From Mucilaginibacter sp. PAMB04168 (lineage in GTDB: Bacteria; Bacteroidota; Bacteroidia; Sphingobacteriales; Sphingobacteriaceae): a DNA stretch of 64,000 nucleotides. The notes beneath the pieces are model-generated. The model worked only from the letters and a program-made list of their open reading frames with translations, was not told the origin of the DNA and searched no databases. Every line of letters starts with the position of its first letter. Position 1 is the first letter of the stretch. Shown piece by piece: positions 37,219 through 39,323 of this stretch. The stretch lies in assembly GCF_039634365.2 (NCBI RefSeq), contig NZ_CP155079.2, positions 4,588,001-4,652,000 on the forward strand, in the 5' to 3' direction. The position numbers were made by a program, and so were the translations under genes.

Positions 37219-38151
37219 CTACTCATTCTCCAGCAACTTTAGCACATCAATCTTATCCTGTGCCAACTGCTCCTTCAAGCCTTCCAGCGAAGTAAACTTA
37301 ACATCGTGCCTTACAAAATATAAAAAGTTCATTCGTAAGGTTTGGTTGTAAATATCACGGTTAAAATCAAAAATATTAACCTCAATATTACGGGTCATGC
37401 CGTTGATGGTTGGCCTGTGACCAATGTAGGCCATGCCTTTAAATACTTCATCGCCCAATTGCACAGTAACCGCAAATATGCCATCGGCCGGTATGAGCTT
37501 GTAGCTTTCTTCTATCAGTAAGTTAGCCGTAGGATACCCCAGCTGCCTTCCAATTTGGTTGCCGCGTATTACGCCGCCGGTTAAAAAGAAAGGATACCCT
37601 AAAAAAGCATTAGCCTGTGCAATATCGGCCTTAAGTAAGGCCTGCCGTATACGGGTGGAGCTTATGGCAACGTGGTCAATATCCTGCTCGGGTATTTCAA
37701 TCACCTCGAAGCCGTAAACCGGCGCAGCATTTTGCAAATCGGCCAGTCCGCCCTGGCGGTCTTTGCCAAAACGATGATCGTAACCAATTATGATTTTGCG
37801 TGTACCGATCTTATTAACCAATATATCGCGTATATAAGCCTCAGCAGTTTGGTTAGAAAAATCACGGGAAAAAGGCGTTATAATCAAATGATCTACGCCT
37901 AACTGCTCCAACAACGTAGCGCGTTCCTGTATGGTGGTAATCAGCTTCAGGTCCTGCTGCTCAGGGTGGATGATCATACGCGGATGCGGAAAGAAAGTCA
38001 GGATGACTGTTTCGCCGCCGGTTTGCCGTGCCAGTTCTTTAAGTCCGGCTATAATTTGCCGGTGCCCCTGGTGTACACCATCAAACGTACCAATGGTTAC
38101 CACTGCATTGGTCAGCGGTTTAAACTCATCTATATGGTGGTAGATCTTCAT
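37219..38151 (-). CDS. ribF: Bifunctional riboflavin kinase / FAD synthetase
   Basis: RibF phosphorylates riboflavin to FMN and adenylylates FMN to FAD. The 310-residue protein has the nucleotidyltransferase N-domain with IGTFDGVHQGHRQII (HxGH-like), YDHRFGKDRQGG and ISSTRIRQALLKADI, and the C-terminal kinase domain with GGVIRGNQIGRQLGYPTANL and YIGHRPTINGMTRNIEVNIF. The ATG overlaps the truB stop by four bases (ATGA), so translation is coupled to truB, a conserved neighbour in many bacteria. Despite the fusion of truB to another domain the ribF start is intact. Confidence 0.96.
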   Translation of the reverse strand: MKIYHHIDEFKPLTNAVVTIGTFDGVHQGHRQIIAGLKELARQTGGETVILTFFPHPRMIIHPEQQDLKLITTIQERATLLEQLGVDHLIITPFSRDFSNQTAEAYIRDILVNKIGTRKIIIGYDHRFGKDRQGGLADLQNAAPVYGFEVIEIPEQDIDHVAISSTRIRQALLKADIAQANAFLGYPFFLTGGVIRGNQIGRQLGYPTANLLIEESYKLIPADGIFAVTVQLGDEVFKGMAYIGHRPTINGMTRNIEVNIFDFNRDIYNQTLRMNFLYFVRHDVKFTSLEGLKEQLAQDKIDVLKLLENE

Positions 38152-39323
38152 AAAGATGCCCCTCCCCGACCCTCCCCACTAGGGAGAGTGTTTTGATGAT
38201 CAGGCATGCTACCTATTTTAGTTTTAATCGTTTCAAAGACTTGCTGTGGAAATTTCAACACCTCATCATTAGTAAAGCGCACAGCTTCGAATCCCCAATG
38301 ATTTAACATGCCGGTTCTTATAGCATCAGCTTCTTTAGTTAGCTCGTGATACCCGCCGTCTACCTCAATAACTAAGCCCTTTTGCAGGCATACGAAATCG
38401 GCAATATAATTATCTATTGCATGTTGCCTGCAAATTTCATAACCTGTACTATCTTGTCTTAATAACTGCCATAAAACATTTTCTGCCTCAGCAGAGAAAT
38501 GGAGATTTGCTCTATTATTATCTTTCAGAGGTTCATAACGGATGGAATCGGCATTCTCCCTAAAACTGGAAGCATTTGTATTCTTTTCTAGAAGTTCCCC
38601 TTTTTGGGGGGGGGGTGGGAGGGGCTGATTTCTGATTACATTCACCAACTCCATTACCTCCCAGGCATCCTCAACTTTATAGTTACCACTCCGGGTGCGC
38701 CTGAGCCTGGATAGATAGGCTCCACTGTTCACTGCTTTGCCAAAATCGTTTACTAAGGAGCGTATATAAGTGCCCTTACTGCACACTACCCTAAAATCAA
38801 TTTCAGGGAGTTCAATACGCGTAAGTTCAAATTCGGTTATGGTTAAGGTACGTGCTTTTAGTTCCACGTCTTCGCCACGGCGGGCTTTTTCGTACAAGCG
38901 CTCGCCGTTTACTTTAATGGCCGAGTGCGCCGGCGGGTATTGCTGTATCTCGCCAATAAACTGGCTGCAGGCATCTTTTAAAGATTGCTCATTCAGATGA
39001 GCAGTTTCAAATTGCTGATCTGCCTCAGTTTCCATATCATAAGACGGCGTGGTGGCACCGAGCGTCATCGTGCCGGTGTATTCCTTTTCCTCCGCCTGGA
39101 AGGTATCAATTTGCTTGGTCATTTTACCGGTGCAAACAATAAGCAAACCGGTAGCCAGCGGGTCTAATGTACCAGCATGACCAACTTTGAGCTTTAAGGG
39201 CTTAAACGCGTTGCGAACTTTGCCTACAACATCAAAGCTGGTCCAGCGATAGGGTTTGTTGATGAGCAGCAGCTCACCTTCGGCAAAGTTAAAGTCTGTA
39301 TGTTTGGGATGTGATTCGCTCAA
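38148..39323 (-). CDS. truB: tRNA pseudouridine-55 synthase TruB fused to a DUF559 endonuclease-like domain
   Basis: 391 residues, against about 230-245 for normal Bacteroidota TruB. Residues 1-231 are complete TruB, with the catalytic aspartate D54 in HAGTLDPLATGLL, YPPAHSAIKVNGERLYEKAR and CSKGTYIRSLVNDFG; it makes pseudouridine at position 55 of tRNA. A Pro-rich joint (PLPPPPQKGE, 234-243) leads into a DUF559/VSR-like nuclease domain (about 265-372) with FSAEAENVLWQLLRQ, YIADFVC (D309), VIEVDGGYHE (E320, D322, H326) and the closing FTNDEVLKF. The tail PSGEGRGGASL comes from the repeat end. All core residues of both parts look intact. No stop or frameshift separates them, so a fusion protein is expected unless it is processed. 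Confidence 0.9.
   Translation of the reverse strand: MSESHPKHTDFNFAEGELLLINKPYRWTSFDVVGKVRNAFKPLKLKVGHAGTLDPLATGLLIVCTGKMTKQIDTFQAEEKEYTGTMTLGATTPSYDMETEADQQFETAHLNEQSLKDACSQFIGEIQQYPPAHSAIKVNGERLYEKARRGEDVELKARTLTITEFELTRIELPEIDFRVVCSKGTYIRSLVNDFGKAVNSGAYLSRLRRTRSGNYKVEDAWEVMELVNVIRNQPLPPPPQKGELLEKNTNASSFRENADSIRYEPLKDNNRANLHFSAEAENVLWQLLRQDSTGYEICRQHAIDNYIADFVCLQKGLVIEVDGGYHELTKEADAIRTGMLNHWGFEAVRFTNDEVLKFPQQVFETIKTKIGSMPDHQNTLPSGEGRGGASL
38158..38625. mobile_element. Candidate DUF559-carrying insertion with inverted C/G-rich ends
   Basis: A segment of about 468 bases covering the DUF559 part of the truB fusion. Its ends are GCCCCTCCC (38158-38166) and GGGAGGGGC (38617-38625), a perfect 9-base inverted pair. 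Just inside each end is a small hairpin: CTCCC-CACTA-GGGAG on the left and CCCC-TTTTT-GGGG on the right, the latter next to a run of ten G (38606-38615). No target duplication is obvious. The interior looks more AT-rich than the truB core. Whether it moves is unknown; DUF559 genes in many genomes lie next to similar C/G-rich repeats. Confidence 0.55.

Follow-up and report, generated by a model that had tools for sequence, protein, structure and literature searches.

Proteins with a DUF559 domain of the NF007294 type, and the NGO0050/3hrl protein, are encoded by separate genes. So is the DUF559 protein VsrA of Caulobacter, where a DNA damage response is described in cells devoid of a cytosine methylase (available text of PMC12907096). 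Homing endonucleases are presented, in the accessible part of a review, as invading conserved genes by means of self-splicing elements (PMC3943268), and the word endonuclease does not occur in the portion available to us of a review on Rickettsia palindromic elements (RPE; PMC10969869). We analysed a window of 64,000 nucleotides (the whole stretch, contig NZ_CP155079.2 of Mucilaginibacter sp. PAMB04168) in which the gene for the tRNA pseudouridine synthase TruB continues in frame into a DUF559 nuclease domain. This domain is carried by one copy of a family of in-frame, nuclease-bearing mobile cassettes that reside in conserved genes and combine features of homing endonucleases, RPE and REPINs. 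No description of DUF559 as an in-frame mobile cassette was found in the literature searched, where DUF559 is named in 14 papers, as judged by titles and the openings of abstracts.

The truB frame is read on the minus strand (39323..38148) from a TTG start and counts 391 codons plus the stop; the plus strand of the same segment is full of stops. An earlier reading of the letters alone (the original prediction), which mentioned neither strand nor start, had proposed a single frame joining TruB to DUF559 without stop or frameshift, with D54 in the former and D309, E320, D322 and H326 in the latter. The frame is indeed open and all five residues are present. Pfam recognised TruB_N at residues 46-187 (3.6e-53), TruB_C_2 at 188-228, and DUF559 (PF04480) at 277-369 (8.6e-26, 90.4 bits for a gathering cut-off of 20.6), and the NCBIfam TruB equivalog scored 211 bits over residues 18-226 (cut-off 151). 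Neither of the two scans revealed a further known domain in the protein, nor an intein domain; the frame is continuous, and introns were not searched with Rfam. In the empty truB alleles that were read, TruB terminates soon after the equivalent of window residue 231, and G+C content in the window copy is 0.38 for the DUF559 core versus 0.48 for the truB part. The truB stop does overlap the ATG of the next gene by four bases, as had been claimed, and this next frame (37219..38151) is RibF. TruB presumably keeps its normal job in this genome.

The nuclease part is flanked by an inverted repeat (38148-38187 and 38596-38635, 70% complementary) that was absent from the original prediction. The end is better preserved in relatives, where alleles read at the truB site show it as some 36 bp, with AAGCCCCTCCCAAACCCTCCCCGGNAGGGAGGGCTT at the left edge and the complementary sequence at the right. 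A search of the 64-kb window with the pattern of these relatives, allowing at most 3 mismatches, gave exactly two matches, one at each cassette edge, and 100 shuffles gave none. What had been described as a Pro-rich joint is the left cassette end, translated. The repeats and the edge matches, together with the domain scores, the open frame and the relatives, rule out both chance and a frameshift artefact. The window copy also has Cys298 where at least 90% of the aligned rows have Arg. Because its ends are degraded and a nearly invariant residue is altered, this copy may be old and decaying. The consensus of the truB-type end contains no stop in any of the three frames, whether it stands left or right, and the three other end types are open in 3 to 5 of the 6 frames. 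In single-stranded DNA folding, one end type did better than 195 of 200 shuffles and a second better than 189 of 200. In two end types (for example at loci L065 and L070, and at L037 and L038) the outer portion reads as a mirror repeat (CCCCTCTAAATCTCCCC, CCCCTCCCAAACCCTCCCC), one strand of which is rich in pyrimidines.

The truB site was followed in 149 genomes of the genus, 141 of them with a TruB match. This census was scored by frame length and would miss a DUF559 placed behind a stop or a contig end; the nine frames longer than 330 residues were all read. Eight of the 141 genomes carry DUF559 at the site (the window genome, G005, G143, G086, G019, G012, G140 and G021), each confirmed by reading the sequence, and G058 has a TruB frame longer than 330 residues, yet without DUF559. 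Three genomes (G139, G141 and G123) have scars, in which only repeat ends are left, in frame. A short two-ended insert was found in truB of G116 and a short end-like tail in that of G142. A tree of truB DNA with 29 rows (30 loci were fetched and L045, cut by a contig end, was dropped; G021, G116 and G142 were left out) contains one clade of 12 genomes (support 100/99), where the allele is full in 7, a scar in 3 and empty in 2. Full G005 and scar G139 are sisters on this tree, as are full G140 and scar G123. Close relatives do not, therefore, all share the fusion. Because full, scar and empty alleles coexist, these comparisons show that the cassette became inserted between truB and ribF in some members of the genus and was then lost repeatedly, which supports the earlier claim that a DUF559-carrying segment was inserted at the 3' end of truB with its frame kept. 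The simplest account is one gain before the 12-genome clade of the window. More than one gain at the site is possible, because carrier G021, whose TruB is only 76% identical to that of the window, is not placed in the tree.

The truB stop and the ribF start overlap in 7 full alleles, but they do so too in the 3 scars and in G018 (L062), whose allele is empty. The overlap in the full alleles would fit a selected bifunctional enzyme, in which the nuclease is tethered to the tRNA pseudouridine synthase, for instance for tRNA or DNA surveillance, and so would the maintenance of the frame and of the catalytic residues at the truB site despite saturated synonymous change. We nevertheless regard this explanation as most improbable, for DUF559 stands in frame with 12 other host gene families, the insert is lost to scars in close kin, and residues 233-274, which link the two domains, are predicted with a pLDDT (predicted local distance difference test) below 50. 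The original prediction had left two options, a cargo nuclease or a hybrid RNA/DNA enzyme. The first is favoured by the 13 host gene families and by the loss of the truB insert to scars with TruB left intact; a purpose-built hybrid is not supported.

The insertion had also been taken as a one-off event in this genome, and it turned out to be one copy of a widespread family. DUF559 was found in 132 of the 149 genomes of the genus, with 1 to 7 matches each, and 104 of the 150 matches listed lie in frames of at least 300 residues. A scan of species genomes confirmed at least 542 DUF559 relatives, the best 80 of which were kept for analysis: 73 lie within longer frames and 7 are stand-alone. The hosts of the embedded copies are LeuS (31 loci, at two main sites), IcmF (12), RecG (11), ValS (6), sugar aminotransferases (3), TruB (2), MetH (2) and IleS (1), with single loci in a ligase-associated helicase, PurL, CinA, an MmeI-like methylase and one unnamed frame. 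HisF, with DUF559 at its N-terminus, is added by the genus loci, so that the in-frame hosts amount to 13 gene families including TruB, three of which are tRNA synthetases belonging to the same class. Profiles identified the host for one to five representatives of each cluster, and the remaining members took the name of their cluster; truB loci L063 (Mucilaginibacter galii) and L064 (M. aquatilis) were named through identity to L040 and L034. Locus L086 counts as embedded in the repeat test below and is labelled stand-alone in the DUF559 tree. The relatives in other host genes rule out an architecture unique to TruB. Inverted repeats scoring well above all 100 shuffles were found for 50 of the 73 embedded and 5 of the 7 stand-alone copies. 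Only 18 of the 73 embedded copies offer an ATG in frame close to the domain start, from 90 nt ahead of it to 30 nt inside (GTG and TTG were not counted), a pattern that agrees with translation starting at the host gene.

Two groups of hosts gave observations of their own. RecG carries an internal DUF559 in 11 loci, mostly of Flavobacteriaceae (L094, L097, L102, L108, L110, L111, L124, L127, L133, L140 and L142). These copies form one supported clade, one member being profile-tested and the others assigned by cluster, and look like an old resident, a candidate domesticated insert. The inserts at LeuS site 1 (L011, L135) and in ValS (L113) lie directly before the strand TTR..TIFG and, as compared by eye, may occupy equivalent positions of the two synthetases.

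A further explanation would be a nuclease of benefit to the host, in defence or repair, that spreads by ordinary gene transfer and to which the repeats are unrelated. VsrA offers a precedent, as a DNA damage response of Caulobacter depends on it (available text of PMC12907096), and weak PADLOC matches point in the same direction (DpdF at 0.0032 for the window domain; 2 of the 5 domains scanned match a homing endonuclease model). The repeats, however, are located at the cassette edges, and it is difficult to see why a gene kept for its own function would insert into the middle of conserved enzymes; we find this explanation very unlikely. Membership in a defence system was rejected, the PADLOC matches being only weak. 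A phage origin was rejected as well, with only 2 weak matches in 50,697 records and PHROGs matches that were weak and mostly of unknown function.

We compared the nucleases themselves in a tree of 113 rows, made of the best 80 relatives, 26 of 30 genus loci (the icmF loci L008, L017, L028 and L030 being left out) and 7 truB-site loci, with some genomes present twice (e.g. L063/L040, L064/L034). A starred set made up of 9 truB and 8 leuS rows includes the window DUF559, and in G140 the copy at truB groups with leuS copies (support 92). The label of LeuS site 1 undergoes 11 changes on the best tree, and starred branches force only 1. Copies from the same site are mostly kin. Because the hosts are diverse and the nucleases of different genes group together, movement of the cassettes among genes is the simplest reading, and one that these sequence comparisons support. 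Over 64 aligned rows (the window and 63 of the best 80 loci), D309, E320 and D322 are invariant and H326 is kept in at least 90%. Among truB-site copies, non-synonymous divergence (dN) reaches 0.11-0.27 in DUF559, with synonymous divergence (dS) saturated, and 0.04-0.11 in TruB. DUF559 thus appears to be under purifying selection, though it evolves faster than TruB. The model of the domain (pLDDT 79) matches 3hrl (Z 14.3), the catalytic domain of I-Bth0305I (3r3p, Z 12.3, over 91 residues) and Vsr (1cw0, Z 9.8). A Vsr-like / EDxHD nuclease fold is therefore predicted for the window DUF559, in agreement with the VSR-like fold assigned to it earlier.

At the icmF site the cassette was met in all its states. 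With the icmF flanks as query, 95 of the 149 genomes matched, and 48 alleles have an insert, 30 of DUF559 size, 17 short with an open frame, and one (G022) with a broken frame; 12 of the 30 large inserts and all 17 short ones were read. The same linker occurs without insert, with a solo end, with a short two-ended insert, with DUF559, or with DUF559 and adjacent further short inserts. Among the short inserts, L202 retains a remnant of the DUF559 leader, and L216 is without a recognisable end. The frame is open in 47 of the 48 inserted alleles. As splicing or ribosome skipping would make the frame irrelevant, this suggests that the icmF insert is translated.

We consider it probable that the cassette is a homing-type element that dispenses with intron or intein thanks to read-through, its nuclease being produced within the host protein. 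The element would be a cassette of about 470 bp, in which two partly self-complementary inverted-repeat ends enclose a Vsr-like nuclease frame. A ribosome coming from the host gene could traverse it, because truB-type ends are stop-free in every frame and the body is open, and the host protein would then contain the nuclease, as a tail or as an internal segment. The nuclease would cut empty sites, or the cassette's own ends, and repair would copy the cassette into the cut, in the fashion of homing endonucleases. Where the host protein tolerates it, in-frame read-through would take the place of the intron or intein. Gain, loss and read-through frames are well supported by the alleles compared; that DUF559 drives the movement is an inference. 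A wider reading is also conceivable, and we put it forward as tentative: autonomous elements of a new class, in which a Vsr-fold nuclease would move itself through its own ends and, in trans, short two-ended copies. These ends would have been shaped to be stop-free in several frames and translated in conserved genes without splicing, in a RAYT/REPIN-like arrangement with another enzyme, with occasional domestication (recG in Flavobacteriaceae).

Short copies of the ends are numerous. The end core CCTCTCCAAAGGAGAGG was found in 131 of the 149 genomes, with a maximum of 128 in one genome and none in the window genome, and the same core written backwards was absent from 148 genomes and had a single match in the remaining one. 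For two other end patterns, which read the same backwards, this control is uninformative, and their counts may include unrelated sequences. In a set of 20 close pairs, hand-picked for closeness, 19 are inverted. The starts of the two members are mostly 34 to 51 nt apart, with 66 and 82 in two pairs, and the resulting elements measure about 75 to 125 bp, often combining two different end types. Ends were also seen in other arrangements: at L274-L276 (G060:C1 near 3978001-3978155) one end plus a spacer forms three tandem copies, 69 bp apart, and in G007 the short two-ended copies L194 and L195 are nested inside another palindromic repeat starting GTCATTGCGAGGA.

At locus L268 (G060:C1 near 2001549), a 17-nt direct repeat stands on both sides of a short two-ended copy, which lies upstream of a conserved gene. 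The 17-nt sequence is single in four empty relatives, and 7 nt separate the element from the left repeat copy. The repeat could be what a staggered break with fill-in leaves. In a first flank set, where empty sites were aligned for 2 of the 9 loci (the matches of L191 being among the unaligned), no clean duplication was seen. In a second set of nine loci three sites were aligned, one with the 17-nt repeat and two unreadable.

Several results weigh against a homing-type element driven by its own nuclease. Target duplication is not constant, one site having the 17-nt direct repeat and the other aligned sites none that is readable. Among the 73 embedded copies, 23 fail the inverted-repeat test, the whole recG group of 11 among them. 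The DUF559 tree is built on few columns and has many open forks, and its starred branches need not force many jumps. The model of the whole fusion is poor (mean pLDDT 62), and domain contacts are unreadable from it. When the truB-type consensus end and the window's own end were folded, 65 and 60 of 200 shuffles, respectively, were as good. End-like sequences also abound in genomes without DUF559, with 96 in G054 and 57 in G081, the latter also without Y1. Lastly, the number of end-like sequences correlates with that of Y1 transposases (rho 0.38) nearly as well as it does with that of DUF559 (rho 0.44), over 120 genomes at least 90% complete, which are not independent (117 if contamination is also held to at most 5%), so that these counts do not tell the two enzymes apart.

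The chief rival is another source of movement, in which the palindromic ends would be a REPIN/MITE (miniature inverted-repeat transposable element) family moved by Y1 (RAYT-like) transposases, with DUF559 as a passenger; the cassette would still be mobile. Y1_Tnp is present in 133 of the 149 genomes of the genus, 14 of the 120 genomes lack DUF559 and still hold 1 to 96 end-like sequences, and the inverted palindrome pairs resemble REPINs as described in the accessible text of PMC3116915. Published RAYT genes, however, have adjacent REPs according to the same text, and none of the 6 Y1 loci inspected, a small and biased sample of the best-scoring ones among many, with one cut by a contig end, is flanked by the palindromes seen here. 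The window genome, G012, G018 and G090 have no Y1 match yet carry DUF559, and the last three hold 39-41 end-like sequences. Conservation of the catalytic residues over many sites would, moreover, be left unexplained for a mere passenger. We judge transposition by Y1 enzymes rather unlikely, and Y1/RAYT-type transposases remain a rival to the nuclease-driven element, above all for the short copies.

Coordinates of the fused frame, the cassette and the neighbouring gene in the window
Feature	Position	Strand	Basis
TruB + DUF559 cassette, one open frame, TTG start, TGA stop	38148..39323	-	frame and domain scans
TruB part, residues 1-231, catalytic D54	38631..39323	-	domain scan, residue check, alleles of relatives
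Cassette, 468 bp between outer edges of the two ends	38158..38625	-	inverted repeats, end pattern
Left (truB-side) inverted-repeat end, degenerate, translated PLPPPPQKGE	38591..38625	-	repeats; cleaner ends of relatives
DUF559 nuclease domain, residues 277-369; D309, E320, D322, H326; C298	38217..38495	-	Pfam, alignment, model
Right (ribF-side) inverted-repeat end, translated TLPSGEGRGG	38158..38192	-	repeats, end pattern
truB stop TGA / ribF start ATG overlap (ATGA)	38148..38151	-	frames
ribF, riboflavin kinase/FAD synthetase, downstream neighbour outside the cassette	37219..38151	-	frame and identification

Selfish nucleases are held to reach conserved genes through splicing introns or inteins, at least in the accessible part of PMC3943268; the cassettes apparently manage by read-through. 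The tolerance of conserved enzymes for inserted sequence becomes testable in this way, and if the nuclease is active on empty sites it may provide a compact insertion tool. The cassettes also call for caution: finding DUF559 fused to tRNA synthetases, RecG, MetH or TruB does not amount to a functional partnership without more evidence.

Among described systems, stand-alone DUF559 proteins (NF007294 type, NGO0050/3hrl, Caulobacter VsrA) belong to the same Pfam family or have the same fold; unlike them, most relatives found here lie inside host frames, and repeats flank many of these relatives. With the I-Bth0305I-type EDxHD / Vsr-like homing endonucleases the cassette shares the nuclease fold, residence in conserved genes and a patchy presence with empty alleles (truB, icmF). 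It differs from them by its inverted-repeat ends and by a frame that runs on from the host gene; neither a self-splicing intron nor an intein was seen around it. RPE are likewise inserted in frame in unrelated genes, and the short icmF inserts are similar to them as they are portrayed in the portion of PMC10969869 available to us, a likeness by description and not by sequence. RPE measure about 150 bp according to the same portion, whereas long, DUF559-encoding copies also exist here, which makes the cassette a nuclease-bearing counterpart to the in-frame palindromes of Rickettsia. The REPIN/RAYT system, finally, resembles ours by its inverted palindrome pairs, its tens of copies per genome and a candidate enzyme gene flanked by palindromes. 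The flanked enzyme is here a PD-(D/E)XK nuclease of Vsr type and not a Y1 HUH transposase, and copies of the cassette also lie within coding frames, whereas REPs are mostly extragenic in the text of PMC3116915 that we could consult. Should the nuclease prove to move itself and the short copies by way of these ends, the elements would deserve to be classed on their own.

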